A stretch of 64,000 nt of DNA from Polynucleobacter alcilacus (GTDB taxonomy: Bacteria; Pseudomonadota; Gammaproteobacteria; Burkholderiales; Burkholderiaceae), in the NCBI RefSeq assembly GCF_018881545.1, contig NZ_JACVQD010000001.1:710039-774038 (forward strand). Reading direction: 5' to 3'. The translations under genes were made by a program, and so were the position numbers. The notes beneath the pieces are model-generated. The model saw only the letters and a program-made list of their open reading frames with translations. It did no database searches and was not told where the DNA came from. Below are positions 34,133 through 56,181 of this stretch, in pieces (the stretch's first letter is position 1; each line of letters opens with the position of its first letter).

Positions 34133-35083
34133 ATGAAACTATTCAAAATCATTACCTTATCACTCGGCTTTTTATGCGCTAGTGCTCATGCACAAAATAT
34201 CTCAATTGCTACTGGTGGTACTGGTGGCGTTTATTACCCAATGGGTGGTGGTCTTGCAGCAGTACTTTCAAGCAAGGTACCGGGAATGTCAGCAACTGCT
34301 GAAGTTACAGGGGGCTCTGTTGATAATTTAAAGCTAATAGGTACTGGCAATCCCTATGTTGGTTTTTCCATGGCAGATGCAGCAAAAGATGCTCAAACTG
34401 GTGCTGACAAGTTTAAAGATAAGCCCATTGATGTTCGCACCTTACTCATACTCTACCCAAACCTCATGCATGTCGCTACAGTTGAATCTACAGGCATTAA
34501 AACTATGAGTGACCTCAAGGGTAAACGTGTTAGTACTGGAGCACCAGGTAGCGCAACTGAAGTGATGGCATTTCGTCTACTTGAAGCAGCTGGTCTTGAC
34601 CCTAATAAAGATGTTAAACGCGAACGCTTGAGTGTTGCTGAGTCTGTGAATGCGGTAAAAGACCGCAAGATTGATGCATTTTTTTGGGTCGGCGGTTTAC
34701 CAACAGCAGCCGTTACAGACTTAGCCAATAGTCCTGGCATGAAAATTGTCATGGTAGATACATCGGCTGAAGTTCCTGCCATGAATAAAAAATATGGAAA
34801 CTTGTATTTTCCATCGGTGATTACCAAGCAGACCTATAGTGGTATGGCTAAAGATAATAATGTGGCTGCCGTTGCCAACATCCTCGTTGTCAATGCCAAT
34901 ATGCCGAATGATGAGGCGTATAAAATTGTCAAGGCTATTTTTGATAATCAACTTGAGCTAGTTCGTTCACATGCCGAATATAGGAATGTAAAACTAGAAA
35001 ATCAAAAAGCGAATGCGACGCCAGTTGCCTATCATCCCGGCGCATTGAAATACTTTAAAGAAAAAGGTATCAAAGTCAACTAA
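34133..35083 (+). CDS. TAXI-family TRAP transporter solute-binding protein
   Basis: A signal peptide (about residues 1-21, ending AHAQ) is followed by ISIATGGTGGVYYPMGGGLA, the hallmark N-terminus of TAXI receptors, and by LKGKRVSTGAPGSATEVMAFRLLEAAGLD. It would deliver a substrate to the fused TRAP permease encoded 72 bases downstream. A stem-loop lies between the two genes. 316 residues. Ligand unknown; the neighbours suggest a sugar acid or other hydroxy acid rather than an amino acid. Confidence 0.93.
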   Translation: MKLFKIITLSLGFLCASAHAQNISIATGGTGGVYYPMGGGLAAVLSSKVPGMSATAEVTGGSVDNLKLIGTGNPYVGFSMADAAKDAQTGADKFKDKPIDVRTLLILYPNLMHVATVESTGIKTMSDLKGKRVSTGAPGSATEVMAFRLLEAAGLDPNKDVKRERLSVAESVNAVKDRKIDAFFWVGGLPTAAVTDLANSPGMKIVMVDTSAEVPAMNKKYGNLYFPSVITKQTYSGMAKDNNVAAVANILVVNANMPNDEAYKIVKAIFDNQLELVRSHAEYRNVKLENQKANATPVAYHPGALKYFKEKGIKVN

Positions 35084-41950: not shown

Positions 41951-43579
41951 ATGTTTTTTCAACCCAAACTCTTCAAGACTTTTGCGGGCTATGACCAAAC
42001 TCTCTTTGTCAAAGATGTATTGGCAGGAATAACTGTCGGTATTGTGGCGCTCCCTTTAGCAATGGCATTTGCCATCGCTAGCGGACTCAAACCAGAAGCC
42101 GGCATCTTTACTGCGATTATTGCTGGCGGACTGATCTCGCTACTGGGGGGCAGCCGCGTACAAATCGGTGGGCCTGCAGGGGCTTTTATTGTGATCGTGT
42201 ATGGCATTGTTGAGCGCTATGGGGTTTCTAACCTATTACTAGCAACAGCGATGTCAGGAGTATTTTTAATACTCATGGGGGCTTTTCGTCTTGGCACCCT
42301 AGTTCGCTTTATACCCATCGCAGTCATTATTGGCTTTACCAATGGCATTGCCTTTTTGATTGGCTTATCGCAAATCAAAGATTTTTTTGGGCTCCAAATT
42401 GAGAAAATGCCTGCCCATTTTTTCCAAGCAGTCCAAGCGCTCTATCTCGCCGCCGATACATTCAATCCGATTGCACTGACTGTCGCATGTGGCAGTCTGG
42501 GCATCATTATTTTCTGGAGACTCTTTCAAAAGCGTCTAGGATTTTTGCATCACATACCAGGAACCGTGATTGCGATGATTCTGGCAACGGTCTTTACTAC
42601 TCTTTTGGATTTACCAATAGATACTATCGGCAGTCAATTTGGTGGCATTCCTTCTTCTCTGCCGAGCTTTGAATGGATACCGGTAAGTTGGGGTACTGCA
42701 CAATATATGGTGGCTCCTGCCCTTACCTTAGCCATACTGGGAGCCATTGAGTCCTTGCTTTGCGCCCGGATTGCCGACGGTCTCATTCATGATCGCCATG
42801 ATTCCAATCAAGAGTTGATGGCTCAGGGTGTTGCAAATATAGTCACCCCTTTCTTTGGCGGTATGCCGGCAACAGGCACGATTGCACGTACAGTCACCAA
42901 TGTAGAAAGTGGGGCGAGTACCCCTATTTCTGGGATTGTCCATGCGCTCACCTTATTAGCGATTGTGTTATTTGCGGCGCCTCTCGCTAAAAACATTCCC
43001 TTGGCAAGTCTTGCAGCAATCTTGATGTATGTCGCTTGGAATATGGGTGAGTGGCGAAAGTTTATTGATCTCAAACAATTTCGGCTACCGTATCGCATTA
43101 CTATCTTGAGTGTTTTTCTGTTGACTGTGATTCTAGATCTCACAGTTGCCGTAGAAGTGGGTCTACTCTCAGCCTTTATTACTTTTATTTACCGCATCTC
43201 CAGTCTTTCTCGCTGCGAAATTGCAGAAGCAAAAATTTATCCTGCACTAAATAATCTCAAAGGGAAAATTGATGCCTACCGAATTTATGGTGCCATCTTT
43301 TTTGGTGCGGTCAAACTCTTAGAAACCATTGAAGAGAACTTACCCTCTCAAACTTTATTGCTCGATCTGAAGAATGTCATTTACATTGATACCTCTGGCA
43401 TGGAAACCATTTCCGAATTGACCCACCTTTGTAAAGTGCACAATGTCAGGCTAATCATCTGCGGCTTAGATCATCAGCCCTATGAAATGGCAGAGCGGAG
43501 CGGCTTCCTCGAAAAATTACCGCAAGATTGCCTCTACCCCGACCTAATCTCCGGAATAGCAGCGGCGACTTCTTCTTAA
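41951..43579 (+). CDS. SulP-family anion transporter with STAS domain
   Basis: SulP proteins move sulfate, bicarbonate or other anions. The ATG at 41951 starts the natural N-terminus MFFQPKLFKTFAGYDQ; the in-frame upstream part from 41888 overlaps the DUF2177 gene and is rejected. The DVLAGITVGIVALPLAMAFAIASGL segment is the SulP signature, followed by ten or more membrane segments to about residue 410. A C-terminal STAS domain has LLDLKNVIYIDTSGMETI. About 542 residues. The substrate cannot be fixed by sequence. Confidence 0.92.
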   Translation: MFFQPKLFKTFAGYDQTLFVKDVLAGITVGIVALPLAMAFAIASGLKPEAGIFTAIIAGGLISLLGGSRVQIGGPAGAFIVIVYGIVERYGVSNLLLATAMSGVFLILMGAFRLGTLVRFIPIAVIIGFTNGIAFLIGLSQIKDFFGLQIEKMPAHFFQAVQALYLAADTFNPIALTVACGSLGIIIFWRLFQKRLGFLHHIPGTVIAMILATVFTTLLDLPIDTIGSQFGGIPSSLPSFEWIPVSWGTAQYMVAPALTLAILGAIESLLCARIADGLIHDRHDSNQELMAQGVANIVTPFFGGMPATGTIARTVTNVESGASTPISGIVHALTLLAIVLFAAPLAKNIPLASLAAILMYVAWNMGEWRKFIDLKQFRLPYRITILSVFLLTVILDLTVAVEVGLLSAFITFIYRISSLSRCEIAEAKIYPALNNLKGKIDAYRIYGAIFFGAVKLLETIEENLPSQTLLLDLKNVIYIDTSGMETISELTHLCKVHNVRLIICGLDHQPYEMAERSGFLEKLPQDCLYPDLISGIAAATSS

Positions 43580-43583
43580 CTCT

Positions 43584-44303
43584 TTAAGAAATACAGAATC
43601 CACCTTTTAGCAATGCATCTGGCAATAACCAAGCGCGATACAAACCAAACCCGCCAGCTGTAAACAATAATGCGGCAGCTAAATAGCGTACCCAGACATA
43701 ATGCCCAAACTGAGTAAGCGCCGCAGAGAATTTAGAGATCAATAAAAGATTGGGCAAAGTACCTAGGCCGAAGGCGAACATCAAGGCTGCACCAGTTGCC
43801 ACATCGCCGGATAAAAATGCGAGCGGTAATACGCTATAGACCAAACCGCAAGGCACTAAACCCCAAAGCATGCCGCTAAACCAGCGAGAAGGTCCGCTAG
43901 CCATTTGGCCCAAATGCTTAGCCCAATAGCCCGCAATTTTGCTACTTAGCCATTTTCCGCCAAGAACCCCTGTGGATTTACCCTGCCTTAACAAACGCCA
44001 GCCCATCAAAATGAGAATCAGCGAGGTGATAGCAAATAAGGGGCGTTGGATAGGAAGCAGATTTTGTTGCCAAACCACGACCCCCATCAAGCCGGCAATG
44101 GCTCCCAATAGGACATAAGTGCTAATCCGCCCAAAATGCATTACTACCTGTAGGTAAAAAAGCTCAGATTTAGACCTTAATGGCATCTCTAGGGCCCCTG
44201 GACGCTCTATGGCAGCCGCAATGCCACCGCACATCAAGGCGCAGTGCCAGCCGCTAACTAAAGCGCCCAGAAACACCGCCAAGAGCAAGCTCGTAGTTAG
44301 CAT
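43584..44303 (-). CDS. Sulfite exporter TauE/SafE (DsbD-like) membrane protein
   Basis: The 239-residue protein has about six membrane segments. The N-terminal FLGALVSGWHCALMCGG (about residues 11-27) is the HCxxMCGG motif of the DsbD_2 branch, whose cysteine could take part in metal or thiol chemistry. Homologues commonly neighbour cbb3 oxidase genes and are thought to assist heme or copper insertion. Here it is divergent from fnr, next to the cco cluster, which supports that role. It converges with SulP, with only a 4-base gap. Confidence 0.82.
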   Translation of the reverse strand: MLTTSLLLAVFLGALVSGWHCALMCGGIAAAIERPGALEMPLRSKSELFYLQVVMHFGRISTYVLLGAIAGLMGVVVWQQNLLPIQRPLFAITSLILILMGWRLLRQGKSTGVLGGKWLSSKIAGYWAKHLGQMASGPSRWFSGMLWGLVPCGLVYSVLPLAFLSGDVATGAALMFAFGLGTLPNLLLISKFSAALTQFGHYVWVRYLAAALLFTAGGFGLYRAWLLPDALLKGGFCIS

Positions 44304-44379
44304 TGCTTACATAAAAGATAGGTAAAAGTGCTGATATCCATAGCAATAGCATAAACTGCACTCATAGTATTGACTCAAT

Positions 44380-45147
44380 ATGAATTACAAACCTACCGAC
44401 TCCCCTACCAGCAAATGCTCAGTCTGCGTGTTGGGTCAGTTTTGCCTTCCAGTGGGGCTCAGTAGTAGTGAAGTTTTACAAGTAGACACCCTTGTAAAAG
44501 AGCGGGTCCATCTCCAAAAAGGAGAAAGCCTTTATCGCCATGGTGATCCTTTAACTTCGGTTTACAGCGTGCGCTTTGGCACACTCAAAACAGAATACTG
44601 TCTACAGGACGGTCGTCAACAAGTGATTGGCTTTCATCTACCTGGTGAAATATTAGGACTTGATGGAATTGGAGAAGGTCACTATCAATCCGACGCCATT
44701 GCTTTAGAAGAAAGTGAAGTTTGTATTATTCGCTATGATGCCTTTGAAGATTTGGCGCGTCAGATTCCTGTTCTCCAAAATCAATTCCATAAGATTATGA
44801 GTCGGGAGCTGACACAAGATCAACGTCATCTCCTCTCTCTTGGCACCATGCGTGCTGAAGAAAGATTGGCAGCATTCTTATTAAGCCTATCGCAACGCTT
44901 GGCTGCGCGCGGCTATCTCAATAATGAATTTGATTTACGGATGAGCCGCGTTGAAATTGGTAGTTACTTAGGCATCCAGATTGAAACAGTAAGTCGCATG
45001 CTTTCGCGCTTTGCAGAATCAGGCCTGATTCAGATTAAACAACGTCACATTAAATTGATTGATATGGATGGTCTGTATGAGCTAGCTGGTATCCCCAATC
45101 CTGACAGACATGGCTGCGCTGTAGAAACACCAATCAAACAGGTTTAA
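44380..45147 (+). CDS. fnr: FNR-type oxygen-responsive transcription regulator
   Basis: This is a Crp/Fnr-family activator with an oxygen-labile [4Fe-4S] cluster. Cluster ligands are visible as Cys13, Cys16 and Cys22 (spacing x2, x5 as in E. coli FNR) and Cys115. The C-terminal helix-turn-helix reads VEIGSYLGIQIETVSRMLSRF, with the E-x-x-S-R contact residues for TTGAT half sites. 255 residues. It sits beside the cco operon and is the likely activator of ccoN through the perfect FNR box at 50387-50400. An 11-base palindrome ATTGACTCAAT abuts its start codon. Confidence 0.95.
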   Translation: MNYKPTDSPTSKCSVCVLGQFCLPVGLSSSEVLQVDTLVKERVHLQKGESLYRHGDPLTSVYSVRFGTLKTEYCLQDGRQQVIGFHLPGEILGLDGIGEGHYQSDAIALEESEVCIIRYDAFEDLARQIPVLQNQFHKIMSRELTQDQRHLLSLGTMRAEERLAAFLLSLSQRLAARGYLNNEFDLRMSRVEIGSYLGIQIETVSRMLSRFAESGLIQIKQRHIKLIDMDGLYELAGIPNPDRHGCAVETPIKQV

Positions 45148-45404
45148 ATTAAACCGCGGTCGTTCTCTTTCCCATCAGCCGCTTCAATCCCAGGCAAGAT
45201 ATAGGCGGTTAAGGCGCTAGAAATCGCACAGAAGATCCAAATTACAAAGAAGCCAATGGTGTAAACACCTTCATCTGAAATGTCAGGATGATGCCCAAAG
45301 AACAAAAGGTCTTGTGGATGAATCACTGTAAATAGCAAGCCTTCCCCCATGCCTGCCACTAAAAATGATGGCCACAAAATCCAGATCAAGAGGCGGTATT
45401 TCAT
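45144..45404 (-). CDS. Unrecognised 86-residue membrane protein at the end of the cco operon
   Basis: The protein has two or three hydrophobic segments (about residues 5-28 and 48-71) joined by a loop with HPQDLLFFGHHPDISDEGVYTIG, rich in His and Asp. It overlaps ccoH by 4 bases (ATGA), so it is translated with the cbb3 assembly genes; its 3' end overlaps the convergent fnr gene by 4 bases. I do not recognise the family. The location implies a role in oxidase assembly, stability or metal supply, but that is inference. Confidence 0.8.
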   Translation of the reverse strand: MKYRLLIWILWPSFLVAGMGEGLLFTVIHPQDLLFFGHHPDISDEGVYTIGFFVIWIFCAISSALTAYILPGIEAADGKENDRGLI

Positions 45405-45604
45405 TTTGGAGCCTGTGCATCTTTGAGTTGCTCGACTTTTAAGCCTTGCTTATTTATACCATCGCGTAAAGGCTTGTCAGCATGTAGGTTGATCGCCAAA
45501 TAAATGGTAATGATGCAGCCGATCATCGCTACCGCTGGACCGCTAATCAATAGCCATGGCCACAACTGTTTCCACCAAGACTTATTAATGTGCTGTTCTG
45601 TCAT
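45401..45604 (-). CDS. ccoH: CcoH/FixH-like cbb3 oxidase assembly protein
   Basis: FixH-family proteins stabilise cbb3 oxidase during assembly. The ATG at 45604 has the upstream GGAGAGGA Shine-Dalgarno; a GTG at 45619 is an in-frame alternative. The protein of 67 residues has one membrane segment (about 16-38) and the PAVAMIGCIITIYLAINLHADKPL block resembling the N-terminal half of FixH. It is shorter than typical FixH (about 150), so the periplasmic beta domain is missing. It follows ccoG by 26 bases. Confidence 0.78.
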   Translation of the reverse strand: MTEQHINKSWWKQLWPWLLISGPAVAMIGCIITIYLAINLHADKPLRDGINKQGLKVEQLKDAQAPK

Positions 45605-45630
45605 AGGAATCCTCTCCACTGTGTACCATC

Positions 45631-47088
45631 TTAACGGGGAATAAAGAAACTCGATTTTTCATTACGAGTTCTCGTGATTGAATGGTCCCCATCAAGCTCT
45701 TGCGCGCTTACATCAAAATAAATTGGGTAATTTCCAGGATCATTTTGGCCAATAGTAGTGCTCACTTTAATCGGGAGCAACTGGTTACTAGCTGGGCTAA
45801 CATCAATCATGGTGATTTCTTTACCTTGAGAGTTTAGGATCTTCAAATCATCCAAACCAGTAGCTTTTACTTGTACCTTCATGGAATGCTCAGAGGCATT
45901 CATAATCTGAATGCGATAAATATTTTCAATTCGAACACCCTCAACCTCACGCGCCAAGGCACCGCGATCTCGCATAATATCCACGCGTAATGGATTCCGC
46001 GTAACTAAAGATATCAAGAAAGCGGATGCTAATACCGTAATAAATGCTGTGTAGATCAAAACCCGAGGACGCAGGATATGGCGCATGGCACTTTGATTCG
46101 ATTCTTGATCTTCAATCGCACGTTCAGTGGTGTAGCGAATTAAGCCTTTTGGATAATCCACCTTCTCCATCACCTGATCGCAGGCATCTATACAAGCACC
46201 ACAACCAATACACATATATTGCAGGCCATCACGGATATCAATACCCGTTGGACATACTTGTACACAAATACTGCAATCAACACAATCGCCCAATCCTAGA
46301 GAGTTATGATCTGCCGATTTACTTCGGCTACCTCTTGGCTCGCCACGGACTTTGTCATACGTAACTAAGAAAGTATCTTTATCCACCATCACGCTTTGGA
46401 AGCGCGCATAGGGACACATGTATTTACAAACCTGTTCACGCATAAATCCTGCGTTACCCCAAGTAGCAAAGCCATAGAAACACAGCCAGAAAGTCTGCCA
46501 AGGTCCCAAAGATAAATGGATTAAGGCTGAGCCTAGGGTGGTAATTGGGGTGAAGTAGCCAATAAAGGTAAAGCCCGTCCAGAATGCGATGAGAAGCCAA
46601 AGAAAATGCTTGGTGATCTTCAAGCGCCATTTTTTGAAGCCCCAGGGCCACTCTTCCCCGTCCAAACGAATGCGTGCAAAGCGATCACCTTCGACCTTAC
46701 GTTCAATCCACATAAAGATTTCGGTATATACCGTTTGTGGGCAAGCATACCCGCAAAATAGACGTCCAGCGACTGCAGTAAAGAGAAATAAAGCTAAGGC
46801 AGACAGAATTAATAAGAGCGTGAGATAAATCACGTCTTGTGGCCAGAGCACGAGACCAAAGATATAAAACTTGCGCTGAATTAAATCAAATAAAACAGCC
46901 TGGCGATCATTCCAATTCACCCATGGCAAGCCGTAAAACAGTAGCTGGGTGGCAAAAATAAGAACGAAGCGCCAGCGGGCAAAGAGGCCAGATACCGAGC
47001 GCGGATAAATCTTGCGCCGGACCTCGTATAAAGATTCCTCTATTACTTCAATCGGAACAGGTTTTCCACCCGGCGAATGACTCGGCAC
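45631..47088 (-). CDS. ccoG: CcoG/RdxA-type polyferredoxin, cbb3 copper assembly
   Basis: CcoG is a membrane ferredoxin that reduces Cu(II) to Cu(I) for cbb3 assembly. The protein has five membrane segments (the cluster from about residue 40 to 230, then 350-370), the RLFCGYACPQTVYTEIFMW motif, two 4Fe-4S motifs (CVDCSICVQVCPTGIDIRDG and CIGCGACIDACD) and a C-terminal Ig-like periplasmic domain (about 375-480). 485 residues. It starts 3 bases after the ccoP stop. Confidence 0.93.
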   Translation of the reverse strand: MPSHSPGGKPVPIEVIEESLYEVRRKIYPRSVSGLFARWRFVLIFATQLLFYGLPWVNWNDRQAVLFDLIQRKFYIFGLVLWPQDVIYLTLLLILSALALFLFTAVAGRLFCGYACPQTVYTEIFMWIERKVEGDRFARIRLDGEEWPWGFKKWRLKITKHFLWLLIAFWTGFTFIGYFTPITTLGSALIHLSLGPWQTFWLCFYGFATWGNAGFMREQVCKYMCPYARFQSVMVDKDTFLVTYDKVRGEPRGSRSKSADHNSLGLGDCVDCSICVQVCPTGIDIRDGLQYMCIGCGACIDACDQVMEKVDYPKGLIRYTTERAIEDQESNQSAMRHILRPRVLIYTAFITVLASAFLISLVTRNPLRVDIMRDRGALAREVEGVRIENIYRIQIMNASEHSMKVQVKATGLDDLKILNSQGKEITMIDVSPASNQLLPIKVSTTIGQNDPGNYPIYFDVSAQELDGDHSITRTRNEKSSFFIPR

Positions 47089-47091
47089 TAC

Positions 47092-48018
47092 TTACTTCGC
47101 TGCTGCTGGCTGCTGATTATTCGACAAACCCCAAACATAAGCAGTCAACAACTGAATTTTTTCAGGGCTCAACACTTTATCCTGAGCCGGCATCATTGCC
47201 ATACGACCTTTGGTAATCGTTTCAACAATAGTTGCCTCTGAACCGCCATATAACCAGGTCTTGTCGGTCAAGTTCGGTGCGCCCAAAGCAATATTGCCCT
47301 TGCCGTCTGTGCCATGACACGCTACGCAATTGGCTTTAAATACTTCAGCCCCACGCTCCGCCTTAATATCGTCAGCTGGCAAACCCGAAAGGCTGCGAAC
47401 GTAATTGGCAACATCCACAATTTGCTTACTATCTAATTGTGGGAATGGAGGCATCACGCCACTACGACCATTAGTAATAGTGGTCTTAATATTCTCCGGT
47501 GAACCACCGTAAAGCCAGTCACGATCCGTCAAATTCGGAAAGCCTTTAGAGCCCCCTGCATCAGAACCATGGCACTGTGCACAGGAATTCAAGAACAAGC
47601 GCTGCCCCATTTCACGCGCTTTTGGATCCGCCGCAACTTGCACAATATCCATCTTTACATACTTAGCATAAACAGGCTTAAGCTCATCGTTTGCAGTGGT
47701 CATTGAACTCATCAACGCACCATCAGTGCTGTAACCCAAGATGCCTGGATAAGATCCTAATCCTGGATAAAGCATGAGATAGACCAATCCAAAAATACAA
47801 GAGATCAAGAACATCCACATCCACCAGCGTGGCAATGGATTATTTAATTCACGTAAATCCCCATCCCATACGTGACCAGTATCTGTCACTTGACCATCTG
47901 GCCCAAGAATGACCTTTGTCTTACGAACAGAAGCTAAAAGCCAGATACACCAAAAAATACCGATCAATGAAACGAGTGCGATGTAAGTACTCCAACCGCT
48001 GCTAAAAAAGTCACTCAT
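47092..48018 (-). CDS. ccoP: cbb3-type cytochrome c oxidase subunit III (diheme)
   Basis: CcoP carries electrons to CcoO and the catalytic subunit. It has two N-terminal membrane segments (about residues 12-30 and 66-85) and two c-type heme sites, CAQCH at 146-150 and CVACH at 231-235, each with a downstream methionine ligand region (VMPPFPQL and MMPAQDK). 308 residues. The start overlaps the ccoQ stop (ATGA). Confidence 0.95.
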   Translation of the reverse strand: MSDFFSSGWSTYIALVSLIGIFWCIWLLASVRKTKVILGPDGQVTDTGHVWDGDLRELNNPLPRWWMWMFLISCIFGLVYLMLYPGLGSYPGILGYSTDGALMSSMTTANDELKPVYAKYVKMDIVQVAADPKAREMGQRLFLNSCAQCHGSDAGGSKGFPNLTDRDWLYGGSPENIKTTITNGRSGVMPPFPQLDSKQIVDVANYVRSLSGLPADDIKAERGAEVFKANCVACHGTDGKGNIALGAPNLTDKTWLYGGSEATIVETITKGRMAMMPAQDKVLSPEKIQLLTAYVWGLSNNQQPAAAK

Positions 48019-48182
48019 GATTTGTCCTTACTGAATTCATCGGGAAGATCAAATGGAAGTTCAGCTGATTCCTGATTAGCCTTCTTCCTGCTAGGAGACC
48101 AAGCCCACCAGACAATCCCAACAAAAAAGGTGAGTCCAATGACTGTTGAAAATGCAGAGAGATAAGGTGTGATCATTTCCAT
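48015..48182 (-). CDS. ccoQ: cbb3 oxidase small subunit CcoQ
   Basis: The 55-residue protein MEMITPYLSAFSTVIGLTFF... has one membrane segment (about residues 8-28), a WWAWSPSRKK basic turn and an acidic tail, the usual CcoQ/FixQ form. It fills the gap between ccoO and ccoP. The ATG is 23 bases after the ccoO stop and the TGA overlaps ccoP's ATG. CcoQ stabilises the CcoP-CcoNO interaction. Confidence 0.9.
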   Translation of the reverse strand: MEMITPYLSAFSTVIGLTFFVGIVWWAWSPSRKKANQESAELPFDLPDEFSKDKS

Positions 48183-48205
48183 TTGATTTTTATCGTATTA
48201 ATTAA

Positions 48206-48856
48206 TTACTTCGCCACAACTTCATCAACGGTGATATACCGACGTGAAATACCTAAGCCTTGGAGATAAGCGACTAATGCATCCATTTCAGTTTTACCCT
48301 CTAATTCTTTGGGAGCATTGGCAATATCTTCATCGGTATAAGGCACACCCAAACGACGCATCGCAACCATATGGGACTGGATGGAAGATGCGTCTGCGGC
48401 ATTCTTCATTAACCAAGGATATCCAGGCATATTGGACTCAGGAACGACATCACGGGGATTATTGAGATGAATCTGGTGCCATGCATCTGAGTAACGGGCA
48501 CCAACACGCGCCAAGTCTGGGCCAGTGCGTTTGCTACCCCATAAAAATGGATGATCGAAAACAGACTCGCCAGCCAAAGAGTAAGGGCCGTAACGCTCTA
48601 CTTCTGAACGCAGAGTTCGGATTTGCTGAGAATGGCAACCGACACATCCTTCGCGCTGATAAATATCACGGCCCGCTAAACGCAATGCAGTGTATGGAAC
48701 AACACCTGGACTAGGCTCAGTGGTGGTATGTTGGAAAAACAAGGGAACAATTTGAACCAAACCGGCAATGGATACCACTACTATCGTTGCAATAATTAGC
48801 CAGCCAACGTTCTTCTCAAGTGTTCCATGGGAAAAGAATTTATTTTCACTAGACAT
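48206..48856 (-). CDS. ccoO: cbb3-type cytochrome c oxidase subunit II (monoheme)
   Basis: CcoO is a membrane-anchored monoheme cytochrome c. It has one N-terminal membrane segment (about residues 18-40), and the heme motif [10 protein letters not shown] starts at residue 71. The [32 protein letters not shown] block and MPGYPWL, with the methionine ligand, are characteristic. 216 residues. It begins 10 bases after the ccoN stop. Confidence 0.96.
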
Positions 48857-48866
48857 TTTCTTCTCC

Positions 48867-50309
48867 TTAGTGAGCCGCTATAGACGCTTGTGGAATAGCA
48901 GCGTCAATGAATTTTTTACCAATAACTGTCTTGTATACGTTGTAAGCCATCAACAACATACCGCCTAAATAGCACAGTCCGCCTAATAAACGAATCACAT
49001 AGAAAGGATAAGTCGCTTTAACTGACTCAACAAAGCTGTAAGTCAAAGTTCCATCAGGCTCAAATGCCCTCCACATCAAACCTTGCATCACACCCGCAAT
49101 CCACATTGCAGCGATGTAAATCACGACACCGATGGTTGCGATCCAGAAATGGACTTCGATTAACTTCGTGCTGTACATATCCCGTTGACCAACTAAACGT
49201 GGGATCAGGTAGTAGAGAGAACCAATCGTAATCATGGCAACCCAACCCAAGGCACCTGAATGCACGTGACCAATAGTCCAGTCTGTGTAGTGAGACAAGC
49301 TGTTCACAGTCTTAATCGACATCATGGAACCTTCGAAGGTTGACATACCGTAGAAGGACAATGCAACGACTAAGAACTTCAAGATAGGATCACGGCGCAA
49401 TTTATACCAAGCACCAGATAAAGTCATGATGCCGTTGATCATGCCGCCCCATGATGGAGCGAGCAGAATCAATGAGAACACCATACCCAAAGACTGGGTC
49501 CAGTCTGGCAAGGAAGTGTGTTGTAAGTGATGTGGGCCTGCCCACATATAGGTAAAGTTTAAAGCCCAGAAGTGGACGATAGATAAGCGATAGGAATAGA
49601 TTGGACGCTCTGCTTGCTTAGGAATGAAGTAGTACATCATGCCTAGGAAGCTGGTAGTCAAGAAGAAGCCTACAGCGTTATGGCCATACCACCATTGAAC
49701 CATCGCATCTTGTACACCAGCATAAGCAGAGTAGGATTTCCATAGGCTAGCAGGCATCTCTAAGTTATTAAAGATATGGAGAATGGCGATCGTCAGAATG
49801 TATGCGCCGAAGAACCAGTTAGAAACATAAATATGTTTCGTCTTGCGCTTCATGATGGTGCCAAAGAAAACTACAGCATATGCAACCCATACAACAGTAA
49901 TGAGAAGATCAATTGGCCACTCTAACTCTGCATACTCTTTGGAAGTAGAAATACCCAATGGCAAGGTTACCGCTGCTAATACGATTACCGCTTGCCAACC
50001 CCAGAAGGTGAATGCGGCTAATTTGTCGCAAAAAAGTCGTGCCTGACACGTGCGCTGAACAATGTAATAGGATGTTGCAAACAGCGCTGAGCCACCAAAC
50101 GCAAATATCACCGCGTTGGTATGTAAGGGACGTAAGCGACCGTAGCTCAGCCAAGGAATATTAAAAGTGATTTCTGGCCAGATGAGCTGGGCTGCAAGAA
50201 TAACTCCCACGAGCATGCCAACAATTCCCCAGAGCACAGTGACGATGGCAAATTGACTGACAACCTTGTAATTGAAGGTATCTTGATTACTCCCCACGGT
50301 AAGTCCCAT
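48867..50309 (-). CDS. ccoN: cbb3-type cytochrome c oxidase subunit I (catalytic)
   Basis: CcoN holds the low-spin heme b and the heme b3-CuB site and reduces oxygen at high affinity. The protein has twelve membrane segments and the histidine ligands in [34 protein letters not shown] and [12 protein letters not shown]. The start is the ATG at 50309, with AGGAG five bases before it; the longest frame from 50366 would begin upstream of the predicted transcription start and adds no homologous sequence. 480 residues. FNR box and -10 element lie directly upstream. Confidence 0.95.
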
Positions 50310-50358
50310 GGTTTCTCCTTTTTTGTGACCAAACGACATAATCCAAATGACTGGATTG

Positions 50359-50364
50359 ATTATC
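50359..50364 (-). promoter_or_regulatory. -10 element of the ccoN promoter
   Basis: GATAAT on the minus strand matches TATAAT at five of six bases. Its centre is 32 bases from the FNR box centre, the class II spacing; the start of transcription would be near 50352. An 11-base palindrome TTGATTATCAA (50356-50366) overlaps it. Confidence 0.7.
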
Positions 50365-50386
50365 AAAGTAAGGCTTTGAGGGGGAT

Positions 50387-50400
50387 TTGATCTATATCAA
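50387..50400 (-). promoter_or_regulatory. FNR box upstream of ccoN
   Basis: TTGATCTATATCAA matches the FNR consensus TTGAT-N4-ATCAA at all ten fixed bases. Together with the -10 element at 50359-50364, it places FNR at about -41.5, for activation under low oxygen. Confidence 0.88.
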
Positions 50401-50471
50401 AAAGGGAAGGCCAAAATAGGGCTCAACCGGAAGAAGAATTACTACCTCTGATGAACTCAGTAGAAATAGAT

Positions 50472-50651
50472 CTACTTTTGAGGGTGTTCGCTAACTATAT
50501 GGGGCTTAGGTACGTCGTCATCCATCAAAATTGCCTGGCCTGGGCCCTCTAAGTCGTCAAACTGGCCACTTTTGATGGACCAGCTAAAAATCCAAACGAG
50601 GAGGCCCACCAAAACTAGGGAGATAGGGATAAGTAGAAATAAGCTTTCCAT
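50472..50651 (-). CDS. ccoS: cbb3 oxidase assembly protein CcoS
   Basis: CcoS is needed for cofactor insertion in cbb3 oxidase. The 59-residue protein MESLFLLIPISLVLVGLLVW... has one membrane segment followed by the family block WSIKSGQFDDLEGPGQAILMDDD (about residues 24-46). It is too short for many gene callers. It starts 9 bases after the ccoI stop, and the FNR-box region and ccoN lie downstream. Confidence 0.92.
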   Translation of the reverse strand: MESLFLLIPISLVLVGLLVWIFSWSIKSGQFDDLEGPGQAILMDDDVPKPHIVSEHPQK

Positions 50652-50660
50652 CGCTATAGT

Positions 50661-53105
50661 CTAAGCTTTTCGCAAACGCCATGCATTTAAAGTCACTGCA
50701 AGCGAGGATAAAGACATCCCAATACCGGCTACCCATGGATTTACCAAACCTATCATGGCAGCCGGAATCGCCAGTAGGTTATATACCAAAGCCCATAATA
50801 AATTTTCTTTAATGATGGTTTGAGTCTTATCTGCCAGAGCCAATGTTCTGGCTAAAGGCTCCAATGACACTGCAGTCAGAATAGCATCCGCACCTGCAGC
50901 TGCTAGTGGGGCACCAGCACCAACCGCAATAGAAATATCTGCGCGCGCTAATAAGGGAGCATCGTTCACGCCATCACCAATTGCCCAGACCACACGACCT
51001 TGTTTTTGTAAGGCCTGGATATATTCATATTTATCTTCAGGAGTGCAGCCCCCTTGATAACTTTGAATACCAACGTGGTGAGCCCACCAAGCCACCGTTG
51101 CGGGATCATCACCAGAAACTACATGTACAGTGATGTTTCTTGATCTTGCGGTCTTTAATAATTGCTCTAAGCCTGGTCGTGGTGTGTCTAAGAAAATAAA
51201 GCTCGCGATCAGTCCTTGCTCATCTGCTAAATGGACTTGGCCATATTGCCCCACCTGCGCATCTTGCTGAACGCCAACCCAAGCTGCACTCCCCAAGCGA
51301 TATACCCCTGAAGATAAGCCTTTCCCCAATTGATTGATGACTGGCTCAAGTAATTCTGGAATAACTAAATTCTCTGACTGTGATGCGCGTAATAAAGAAA
51401 GGGCTAATGGATGCCTTTGACCAGCTTCCAACGCCACAGCCAAGGCAAGCGCATCTTCACGGTGATAGCCTGATCGCAAATGGATGATTTCTTGTAACTC
51501 TGGTTGACCCATCGTTAAAGTGCCAGTCTTATCCAATACCAGATCCGTAGCCTTCACTAAACCTTCCATCACATGGCCACGCACAATCAGTAAGCCTAAT
51601 TTGGTTACTGCACCTTGTGCGGCTGCCATCGCTGTTGGCACTGCGAGCGATAAAGCGCAAGGACAACTCGCCACCAATACCGAAACTAACACTGTCCAAG
51701 CTCGACTTGGATCAAAGTACCACCAAACTACTGCGGAAATAAATGCACTTAGCAATAAGAATGCAACAAAATAGGCAGCCCACTTCTCTGCTAGGCTCAC
51801 CATCACTGGTTTTGCAAGTAGTGCTTGATCTAACAAGGAAGCAATTCCGGCAATGCGGGTAGATTGCCCCACTGCGTCAATTCTCATGAACAACGGATTC
51901 AGAATGTTATGCGTACCTGCATAAACGCGATCGCCAATTTTTTTCTCAACCGGTTTTGATTCACCGGTTAGCAAAGATTCATCTAAGGCGCTAGCATTTT
52001 CAATCACGATGCCATCGGCAGGAACGACTTCTCCAGGAGATACGCGAAGTATTTCACCTGGTTTGCAATTGACGACTGGCACTACTTCAATTTCTTGCGA
52101 AGCTGGGTAATTAAAGGCACGCTCACAGGTAGCGGGCAATTGTTTTACGAGCGCCTCTGCCCCGCCCTGCGCATCTTGCCTTGCCAATAACTCCACATAC
52201 CGTGCTGCCAAGATGAATGCGACGAACATCGTGATGGAATCAAAATAGCTGGGGCCTGAGCCAGTGATTAAATTAATCGTTCCGGCAATAAAAGCCAATG
52301 CGAGAGCGAGAGCAATCGGAACATCCATCCCCAACAGATGGGTTTTCTTGAAGGACGCTACGCTACGCCAAGCAGCTTGAAAGATGGGTCCTGCTGAATA
52401 CACCATTACCGGGACTGTGAGTACCCAGCTTGTCCAGCCTAACAAGCGATCAAACTCTGGCGTAATATCTGCACCCGTATAGGAAGGCCACGCATACATC
52501 ATGACCTGCATCATGCCGAGCAGCGCTACTCCCAATCTGGTGAGTAACTGCCGTCTTTCTTTCTTGGCTCTATCTAGCGCTAAGGAAGGCTCAAAGGGCC
52601 AAGCCTCATAACCAATGCGCTCAATCTCAAAAAGCAATCTTGCTAGGCTCGTACTATCTGGAGAAAACCGCACAATGACTTTTTGTGTCACGTAATTGAT
52701 TTGCACATCTTTTACGCCAGCGATGCGGCGTAAGTGTTGTTCGCATAGCCACACACAGGCAGCACACCGAATTCTTTCTAAACGCAAAGTGGTTTCTAGA
52801 TCACCAGAATCTCCATGGGGGCGAGTAAAACGGCCTCGCAGTGAAGGGTCGTCATAAGGCTTTAGCTTGTCTGGGATTTCATTCAGGGCCAAGTAGGCTG
52901 CAGGCTTCTCACCAGATTGCACTCGGCGCGTATAAAAGACCTCTAGACCTTCACCATGAATCGTTTGCGCAATCGCCATACAACCAGAGCAGCAAAATGG
53001 GCGACTAACGCCATTGAGTTTAGACTCAATCAGTTCATCTGGGGCGATCTCACTGAAGCAATGGTAACAAGATAAAGTGATTTTCTTGTTCATAGCAGAG
53101 ATCAT
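50661..53105 (-). CDS. ccoI: Copper-transporting P1B-type ATPase for cbb3 assembly
   Basis: CcoI exports Cu(I) to the periplasm for the CuB site. The N-terminus has a cysteine-rich metal-binding domain (Cys13, Cys16, Cys38, Cys39, Cys42) and an HMA domain with CAAC at 114-117. The core shows the CPC of SCPCALSL in the sixth membrane segment, the phosphorylation motif DKTGTLT, the HP of QRHPLAL and GDGVNDAPLL. 814 residues. The ATG overlaps the MFS gene's stop (ATGA); an internal ATG four codons later is a possible start. Confidence 0.93.
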   Translation of the reverse strand: MISAMNKKITLSCYHCFSEIAPDELIESKLNGVSRPFCCSGCMAIAQTIHGEGLEVFYTRRVQSGEKPAAYLALNEIPDKLKPYDDPSLRGRFTRPHGDSGDLETTLRLERIRCAACVWLCEQHLRRIAGVKDVQINYVTQKVIVRFSPDSTSLARLLFEIERIGYEAWPFEPSLALDRAKKERRQLLTRLGVALLGMMQVMMYAWPSYTGADITPEFDRLLGWTSWVLTVPVMVYSAGPIFQAAWRSVASFKKTHLLGMDVPIALALALAFIAGTINLITGSGPSYFDSITMFVAFILAARYVELLARQDAQGGAEALVKQLPATCERAFNYPASQEIEVVPVVNCKPGEILRVSPGEVVPADGIVIENASALDESLLTGESKPVEKKIGDRVYAGTHNILNPLFMRIDAVGQSTRIAGIASLLDQALLAKPVMVSLAEKWAAYFVAFLLLSAFISAVVWWYFDPSRAWTVLVSVLVASCPCALSLAVPTAMAAAQGAVTKLGLLIVRGHVMEGLVKATDLVLDKTGTLTMGQPELQEIIHLRSGYHREDALALAVALEAGQRHPLALSLLRASQSENLVIPELLEPVINQLGKGLSSGVYRLGSAAWVGVQQDAQVGQYGQVHLADEQGLIASFIFLDTPRPGLEQLLKTARSRNITVHVVSGDDPATVAWWAHHVGIQSYQGGCTPEDKYEYIQALQKQGRVVWAIGDGVNDAPLLARADISIAVGAGAPLAAAGADAILTAVSLEPLARTLALADKTQTIIKENLLWALVYNLLAIPAAMIGLVNPWVAGIGMSLSSLAVTLNAWRLRKA

Positions 53106-54337
53106 GTCCTAGCTTTACGCATCCAACCATTACGCCGTTCATACATCACAAACAGCACGCCCCATATGACTATGGCAGCATACGCCCATATCCAGGCAAC
53201 TTGGGAAGAGCGTGAACCAGAAATATCTAATACAAAACCAAAAATTGCTGGGCCTAATAAACCGCCGCCAAAGCCCATTAAAGAATGCAAGCCCATTGCT
53301 GCACCCTTCATATTTTCTTGTGCACTAATCACCAAGCCTGCAGTTAAGGTTGCAGAATCCGCCATGATAAAAATAGCATGCCCAACGGCTAGAGCAACAA
53401 TCAGCCACCAGGATTGACCAGTAGAGCTAGCTAGCGCGATACCCATGACTGCACTAGTCAGCATTGCTATACATACCCACTTTTGACGCCCTACTCGCAG
53501 GGCAATTTCATTTCCTAAAATTGAAGCAGGCACACCAAAGAAATTAATCACGCCAGATAAAGTCGTTGCTGCCAAGAAAAATGTTTCGCCAGTAGTGATC
53601 GTACAAAATGCAAAGAAGGCTACGATCCAACTTCGAGAGGCAAATAACTCAAGGGTATGGGCGGTATAACCAAAGATAAATCCAGAGGCTTTTTTATCTT
53701 GCAATACCAATTTCCATTTATTTACTGGAAATAGATCATGCAAGCGAATGCGGATTGGCCCCTGCCACTTGTCATGTTGTAGAGGTGCGATGAATAACCA
53801 AACAATCAAAAAAGCAGTAAACGGCCCTAAGGCAATCAAACCAAATACATAACGCCAACCCAAGGCCTCCAAGATCCAGCCAGAGCATAAATAAGAGAAG
53901 CCCGTACCAATACCGAAGAAGGCGGTATAAAAAGCAATGTGTCGAGTAAGCTCTCCAGACTGAATACGATCCGATAGTATTTTGAGACCAGGCATATAGG
54001 TACCCGCTAGCCCTGCTCCGTTGATCGCCATAAAAACTAAGGCAGTCCAAAAGTTATTAGCAAAGACTCCCATCCCTAGAAGGCCGAAAGTCGCCGATAG
54101 CCCACCGATCAAATATACCTTGCGAGCGTCTACTCGATCAGTCAAAGCGGTCGCTAAAGGGACAGCTAACATATAGCCAAAGAAAAATGCGCTGGCAATT
54201 AAACCAGACTGGAGATTACTTAAATGCCATTCTTCCTGCAGCACTGTCAGCACGACAGCATAGCAAGCAAAGCCCAATAAAGCACAGGTTTGTGCCATGA
54301 GCATCAGAGGGGTGTAAGCAGCCGAACGAAAGCGCAT
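53102..54337 (-). CDS. MFS transporter coupled to ccoI
   Basis: The 411-residue protein has twelve predicted membrane segments and the MFS motif A-like GYMLAVPLATALTDRVDARKVYL (about residues 54-76). It overlaps ccoI by 4 bases, implying translational coupling. Such linkage raises the possibility of copper import for the oxidase, as done by the MFS protein CcoA in Rhodobacter. However, I could not find the MxxxM and HxxxM metal motifs of CcoA here, so general MFS transport of another solute is equally possible. Confidence 0.8.
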   Translation of the reverse strand: MRFRSAAYTPLMLMAQTCALLGFACYAVVLTVLQEEWHLSNLQSGLIASAFFFGYMLAVPLATALTDRVDARKVYLIGGLSATFGLLGMGVFANNFWTALVFMAINGAGLAGTYMPGLKILSDRIQSGELTRHIAFYTAFFGIGTGFSYLCSGWILEALGWRYVFGLIALGPFTAFLIVWLFIAPLQHDKWQGPIRIRLHDLFPVNKWKLVLQDKKASGFIFGYTAHTLELFASRSWIVAFFAFCTITTGETFFLAATTLSGVINFFGVPASILGNEIALRVGRQKWVCIAMLTSAVMGIALASSTGQSWWLIVALAVGHAIFIMADSATLTAGLVISAQENMKGAAMGLHSLMGFGGGLLGPAIFGFVLDISGSRSSQVAWIWAYAAIVIWGVLFVMYERRNGWMRKART

Positions 54338-55425: not shown

Positions 55426-56181
55426 TTATTGTTGGCTGCGGTTGGGTGAGTCCTGAAAACCACTCGACCGATAAGTGAGCACGAGAGTATCGCGATAACC
55501 ATAATCACCCAGCGGCTGAATCGGTGTGGATTCATGAATCATACGCTCATCATTCATGAGCAATAAAGACCATGGCTGTGCCAAAGTAAAGCGCAAGCCA
55601 GCTGAGCCAGCGGCATTAAAAATTCTGGTCTCGCCGCCTTTCATGCCAACGCGATTCAATAAGAACACTGCCACAAAATCGACACCATCACGATGCGCAC
55701 CTTCAGGGGTTGGTCGACCTATACCATCGGTTGTATCAATACGGAACTGATGCGCTTCTACAAACCAAGTGGTGACTGGCTTCAAACTATTTAGTAAATG
55801 TGCAATACCCATCAATACAGCTTGCCACGCAGGGTCATTCAATAATTTTTCTTGAACGGGTTCAAACCAGCGCTCAATACCACCATGCAATGCGTTGTAA
55901 TTCACTGATTGCCAATGCGCACGATGCGGTACTAAATGGAGTTGCTCACCCTTAATCTCATAACTCGCATGACGGCGAAAACGGTAACGTCCCCCATCTT
56001 TCAAATAAGGGTCGCGAGGCAAGCCTTCCCAAAACGGGGTTAAGCCTTGTAAATCGCCAAGAGAGAGTCCGCTAATCTCGGCAACCGATTCAGCAGAAGC
56101 CACTACATAACCATCGGTACGCAAAGCTCCAGCGAGCTCTTTGACCGGAGTGAGTGGAGGTGCTAAAAGGGCATTAGGCAT
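55426..56181 (-). CDS. 2OG-Fe(II) dioxygenase family protein
   Basis: The protein belongs to the 2OG-Fe dioxygenase family with a double-stranded beta-helix. The His-x-Asp iron motif is HRDGVDFVAVFLLNR (about residues 163-177), with an Arg-rich PTPEGAHRDG lead; the distal His is in MIHESTPI and the 2-oxoglutarate arginine in LTYRSSGF. Some relatives hydroxylate free amino acids. 251 residues. It lies downstream of a Bug receptor gene on the same strand with a 32-base gap. Confidence 0.83.
   Translation of the reverse strand: MPNALLAPPLTPVKELAGALRTDGYVVASAESVAEISGLSLGDLQGLTPFWEGLPRDPYLKDGGRYRFRRHASYEIKGEQLHLVPHRAHWQSVNYNALHGGIERWFEPVQEKLLNDPAWQAVLMGIAHLLNSLKPVTTWFVEAHQFRIDTTDGIGRPTPEGAHRDGVDFVAVFLLNRVGMKGGETRIFNAAGSAGLRFTLAQPWSLLLMNDERMIHESTPIQPLGDYGYRDTLVLTYRSSGFQDSPNRSQQ

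Follow-up and report, generated by a model that had tools for sequence, protein, structure and literature searches.

A conserved FNR box at class II spacing before ccoN predicts a low-oxygen promoter for the cbb3 oxidase operon of Polynucleobacter

The window, the whole 64,000-nucleotide stretch of the Polynucleobacter alcilacus genome that was analyzed here, contains a cbb3 oxidase operon in which ccoN (48867–50309; TIGR00780, 776.8 bits, cut-off 583.15), ccoO (48206–48856; TIGR00781, 287.9 bits, cut-off 200.65) and ccoP (47092–48018; TIGR00782, 303.9 bits, cut-off 179.95) follow one another in this order on the minus strand, all three above the cut-offs of their models. On the same strand, ccoG (45631–47088; TIGR02745, 492.8 bits, cut-off 316.7) lies downstream, and upstream are a gene for a 59-aa small membrane protein (50472–50651), which from its translation and position we take to be ccoS, and a gene for a copper P-type ATPase matching TIGR01511, TIGR01525 and PF12156 (50661–53105), presumably ccoI. 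The fnr gene (44380–45147, plus strand), encoding 255 aa, narrowly passes the NF008365 Fnr model (230.7 bits, cut-off 228) and is located 5.2 kb from the FNR box described below, in agreement with the distance of about 5 kb given in the sequence-only reading from which this analysis started. It is convergent with an ORF at 45144–45404 (minus strand), the stop codons of the two overlapping at 45144–45147. The ORF about 5 kb from the box on the opposite side (55426–56181) encodes a 2OG-Fe dioxygenase-family protein, not Fnr.

The segment 50310–50471 is exactly the gap between the end of ccoS (50472) and the ATG at 50309. Within this gap, the 14 bp at 50387–50400 read TTGATATAGATCAA on the minus strand, the strand of ccoN, and TTGATCTATATCAA on the plus strand, and match the FNR consensus TTGATNNNNATCAA at all 10 fixed bases, as had been claimed from the sequence alone. 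The same reading had placed the center of a GATAAT hexamer 32 bases from the center of the box, and this geometry holds as well: the candidate -10 element (50359–50364, minus strand) is separated from the box by 22 nt, with the centers 32 nt apart, so that the box would be centered at about -41.5, the class II position, and transcription is expected to start at approximately 50352, leaving a leader of about 43 nt. A Shine-Dalgarno sequence, AAGGAG (50315–50320), ends 5 nt before the ATG. No other perfect FNR palindrome exists in the window (mean of 0.09 per shuffle; 9 of 100 shuffles contain one), and with one mismatch allowed, 12 boxes are found versus 4.38 expected, a number reached by 1 of 100 shuffles; near-matches being this common in the window, the box on its own is weak evidence. 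Searched together, the box and ATAAT produced a single match in the window with zero mismatches and 2 matches with up to two mismatches (shuffle mean 0.32).

Conservation of this arrangement was assessed across 121 Polynucleobacter genomes. A ccoN match was detected in 96 of these and counted in 94, given that the oxidases of G018 and G100 are all remote ones with about 33% identity, which were excluded from the ccoN counts. The named relatives of the ccoN of the window include that of Polynucleobacter sp. MWH-HuK1, at 96%. Upstream regions were read for 90 loci and 89 were used, after dropping one (L006) with only 18 nt of upstream sequence; the 89 include neither the ccoN fragments in G042, G022 and G051 nor the main copy in G062, which is located at a contig start. 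The FNR box score was 10/10 in 63 of these loci, 9/10 in 21, 8/10 in 4 and 7/10 in 1, with 88 of the 89 thus reaching 8/10 or better, so the comparison of related genomes that the sequence-only reading had proposed as a check came out in its favor. GATAAT, GACAAT, TATAAT or CATAAT is present at a gap of 22 nt in 83 of the 89, with gaps of 21 nt in 2 and 23 nt in 1. Across the 86 distinct sequences, the mean information content was 1.74 bits per box column and 1.63 bits per -10 column, compared with 0.59 bits for the other columns. The two central bases of the box (50393–50394), which are outside the consensus, are TA in nearly the whole genus (100% and 99%).

The pattern TTGAY-N4-ATCAA-N23-ATAAT, scanned against the complete genomes, yielded 82 matches in 81 of the 121, versus 2 for the reversed control, kinship being ignored in this comparison. 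Most of the matches (76) fall at the fetched ccoN loci; three more are probably at ccoN, two judging by their contig position beside ccoN pieces (G051 and G062) and one, on a contig not linked to ccoN, by sequence similarity only (G022); the remaining three, namely, the second match of G049 and the matches of G015 and G078, are elsewhere. At two loci (L064 and L066, from G120 and G060), a second partial box, attgatctatat, directly follows the first, inside the spacer.

Outside the genus, 91 ccoN loci were compiled, comprising 74 of 80 from named contigs, by title mostly of beta- and gammaproteobacteria, and 17 from a family search; the two sets may overlap. Six loci (L140–L145) were left out of this count as genus members by name or by 88–99% identity, and the 17 from the family search are those of its matches that came with loci; all loci were oriented by protein similarity. 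A box of at least 8/10 was found within 300 nt of ccoN in 77 of the 91 loci, versus 6 of 91 in a same-sized control region of ccoN coding sequence, and a box of at least 9/10 in 57 versus none; 14 of the 91 lack a box of 8/10 within this distance. Dinucleotide shuffles of such upstream regions, some of them misoriented in this particular comparison, reach 8/10 in 13.5% and 9/10 in 1.1% of cases. In the 77 loci with a box, -10-like hexamers are concentrated at a gap of 22 nt (35 loci) and 21 nt (13 loci), and every other gap from 8 to 35 nt accounts for no more than 3. The central bases form a pyrimidine-purine step in 53 of the 77 boxes.

The ccoN ORF can be read from a TTG at 50366 (499 aa) or from the ATG at 50309 (480 aa), and the 19 additional residues of the TTG-initiated form overlie the -10 element. 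Among the 89 genus loci, GGAG is found at most 16 nt before the ATG in 86, and the distance from the box to the ATG is 77–82 nt in 70, varying by single bases while the ATG stays in place. Of the 80 relatives with GATAAT, only 11 have the counterpart of TTG 50366 in the reading frame of the ATG, and 6 have an open in-frame TTG. Because the TTG is rarely in frame and the box-to-ATG distance varies by single bases, the 19-residue extension is not conserved coding sequence. The relocation of the ccoN start to ATG 50309, suggested earlier from the predicted transcription start and the AGGAG that precedes the ATG, is thus upheld by the AAGGAG at 50320–50315 and strongly supported by conservation in the relatives.

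The likely regulator is encoded in the same module. Fnr of the window contains the CxxCx5C motif and a distal cysteine expected of cluster ligands (positions 13, 16, 22 and 115), and when 50 Fnr proteins were aligned, taken from 50 of the 104 genomes in which any Fnr match was detected, these four cysteines proved invariant, whereas the two other cysteines vary. The recognition helix reads ETVSR in all 50; the E..SR residues of this helix read TTGAT. With ccoN counted as present at 80% identity or more and Fnr at 45% or more, 92 of the 121 genomes encode both, 2 only ccoN (G043 and G051), 4 only Fnr (G015, G093, G106 and G115) and 23 neither (Fisher p = 1.5e-18, with kinship ignored). Related genomes are not independent points in this test, and because fnr is linked to the cco module, their joint absence may reflect single linked deletions. 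Of the two genomes with ccoN only, G043 (99% complete) encodes only an Fnr-like protein of 34% identity and has the sole 7/10 best box among the 89 loci, and G051, a draft that is 80% complete with no Fnr found, keeps the box. Autoregulation of fnr was rejected for the source genome, where the 160 nt that precede the cysteine motif of fnr contain no box above 6/10. In ten relatives with TTGACC-type ccoN boxes (fnr loci L308–L317), an FNR box of 9–10/10 is invariably present upstream of fnr, compared with a single locus among the 40 others that were read, so that autoregulation of fnr is possible in this one group.

Several other explanations of the box were weighed. A chance palindrome is conceivable in a genome that contains 19 perfect ones, and genomes devoid of Fnr are nearly as rich in them: over all 121, the density amounts to 8.36 per Mb in those with Fnr and 7.31 in those without (one-sided p = 0.018), and in a subset (64 of the 96 genomes with Fnr and 24 of the 25 without) 7.89 versus 7.42 (p = 0.13). 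With densities so close, most perfect palindromes appear to owe nothing to Fnr, and only position and conservation lend the ccoN box credibility; we therefore rejected the counting of perfect palindromes, which differs by about one per Mb between the two groups of genomes, as evidence of a regulon. The ccoN box and its exact spacing are conserved, however, and coincidence can be considered vanishingly improbable. The box could also be read by a CRP/FNR-family protein without an Fe-S cluster. A cNMP-domain search of the genome returned three matches, namely, Fnr, a channel-like membrane protein and one other such candidate, a 205-aa Crp-like protein (G000:C1:1851175–1851789) that lacks the CxxCx5C motif and has a PETLSR helix with the same E..SR residues as Fnr. 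Its distribution, however, does not follow the box: strong matches occur in 22 of the 27 genomes lacking ccoN (one of them broken by a stop) and no match was found in at least 15 box-bearing genomes, several of them drafts, whereas Fnr tracks ccoN. This protein was accordingly rejected as the reader of the box, a role that we regard as very unlikely for it.

Two further possibilities concern the promoter itself. If ccoN were mainly transcribed by read-through from ccoI and ccoS, the box would only modulate its expression; the three genes share one direction, and a search of 50250–50700 detected no terminator-like site. Against this possibility, which we deem unlikely, a complete -10 element and box are conserved directly before ccoN, and from 43079 to 54020 the window contains no further box with one mismatch or fewer, the one that follows, at 54021, being inside an MFS transporter ORF; some read-through may still occur. 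The sequence-only reading had, in addition, noticed a second palindrome over the -10 element and suggested that it could be a repressor site. The palindrome exists, TTGATTATCAA, a perfect 11-nt one at 50356–50366, and an operator at this place would block the -10 element and make for a two-input promoter. The window contains one further 11-mer of the TTGATTATCAA type, at 34941. In the genus, however, the full palindrome TTGATNATCAA is found at the equivalent place in only 21 of the 89 loci, and the bases beyond the -10 element drift, the three that follow it carrying 0.19–0.49 bits each versus the mean of 0.59 for the other non-motif columns. As the part outside the -10 element is not conserved, the repressor suggestion was rejected and appears highly improbable; the palindrome is probably fortuitous, consisting of the -10 element plus a chance extension.

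We consider it highly probable, then, that the ccoS-ccoN gap contains a class II FNR-dependent promoter activated by Fnr at low oxygen, with ccoN translated from ATG 50309. The box and its class II spacing are strongly supported by conservation within and beyond the genus and by co-occurrence with an Fnr that has intact ligands; the cluster, the binding, the start site, the oxygen response and the extent of the operon we infer from the general mechanism of FNR. At low oxygen, Fnr would hold a [4Fe-4S] cluster, dimerize and bind the 14-bp box at -41.5, and the bound protein would contact RNA polymerase such that transcription starts near 50352. This activation would raise the expression of ccoN, ccoO, ccoP and, probably, ccoG, and oxygen, by destroying the cluster, would turn the promoter off. 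Translation would begin at the ATG behind AAGGAG, and the TTG extension, lying inside the promoter, would not be made. Our findings give the high-affinity oxidase of a widespread freshwater genus a precisely placed and testable promoter, settle the ccoN start and show that many betaproteobacteria preserve the FNR-cbb3 wiring almost base pair for base pair; they leave the knowledge of FNR itself unchanged.

The other 18 perfect palindromes of the source genome were inspected in 4-kb stretches. Twelve are inside ORFs of at least 70 aa; of the six that are not, two precede ompW, one is in a photosynthesis region and three precede genes for a nitrile hydratase subunit, a sulfatase and a dehydroquinase. 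The box in the photosynthesis region (G000:C1:809241), before a B12-binding gene, was rejected as not conserved: none of the other 29 loci has a box of at least 9/10 near the aligned start of this gene, a start that is approximate in the distant ones. The source genome also encodes photosynthetic reaction-center genes (G000:C1:842398–844075), and ccoN is present in 27 of the 45 genomes with reaction centers versus 67 of the 76 without (p = 5.6e-4, with kinship ignored and a weak G072 match left out of the count).

The two perfect boxes before ompW (G000:C1:1930388–1930401 and 1930460–1930473) are 72 bp apart, and the one nearer to the gene is followed by GAAAAT at a gap of 22 nt. Two boxes of at least 9/10 are present in 29 of the first 30 ompW loci, with a spacing of 71–72 bp in 28 and 81 bp in one, and two boxes of at least 8/10 in 19 of 20 further loci, with spacings of 71–72, 49–50 or 32 bp; the sole exception among these 20, in G043, is an OmpW match of only 39%. 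The ompW gene of Escherichia coli, too, is described as having a pair of FNR sites, of which one activates and the other represses (PMC4886647). One Polynucleobacter genome (G041) has two FNR boxes before ompW, yet no Fnr or ccoN match, which may reflect a draft gap, a recent loss or another regulator. A tentative and somewhat doubtful extension of our interpretation is that Fnr, normally a global oxygen regulator, has become in Polynucleobacter a switch that serves little more than the cbb3 oxidase and ompW and that comes and goes with them. The class II pattern as a whole (box, 22 nt, NATAAT), of which a genome that has it contains about one copy, at ccoN, is consistent with this possibility, as are the roughly one extra perfect palindrome per Mb in genomes with Fnr, which approximately corresponds to the ccoN box and two ompW boxes, the absence of Fnr from 23 of the 27 genomes lacking ccoN, and the conservation of both ompW boxes; the ompW boxes of G041 argue against it. 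This evidence covers perfect palindromes and the exact joint pattern rather than weaker or differently spaced sites.

The arrangement proposed for ccoN is that of the class II FNR promoters of E. coli narG and dmsA, in which the box is near -41.5, over the -35 region, and a -10 element is present, although the target genes there are other than a cbb3 oxidase. Dinoroseobacter shibae is an alphaproteobacterium. In this aerobic anoxygenic phototroph, the Fe-S protein FnrL induces the cbb3 oxidase operon fixNOQPGHIS, but three further Dnr regulators are described (PMC5398030). In the literature searched, we found no description of FNR control of ccoN in Polynucleobacter; the cbb3 subunits of P. 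asymbioticus are reported to be more highly expressed beside one flagellate species, in an article the main text of which does not mention Fnr, according to a term search (PMC6629928). In Candidatus Accumulibacter, an FNR motif precedes the cbb3 operon and the transcripts follow oxygen, but in the part of that report available to us, the motif comes from MEME and is accompanied by neither a -10 spacing nor a footprint (PMC6446978). The closest parallel is Herbaspirillum seropedicae, where the transcripts that low aeration induces most strongly include fixNOP and ompW1, both identified as direct Fnr1 targets by ChIP-seq and RNA-seq (PMC5934665). The cbb3 operon and fnr are neighbors there, too, and ompW1 belongs to the same regulatory group; the differences are that H. 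seropedicae has three Fnr orthologues, compared with the one Fe-S Fnr found in the Polynucleobacter genome, and that the class II position (-42) given in the accessible part of the study concerns fnr1 rather than fixN (PMC5934665). Because FNR is already known to control the cbb3 operon in relatives such as Herbaspirillum, the promoter described here appears to be a correct but ordinary instance of this wiring.
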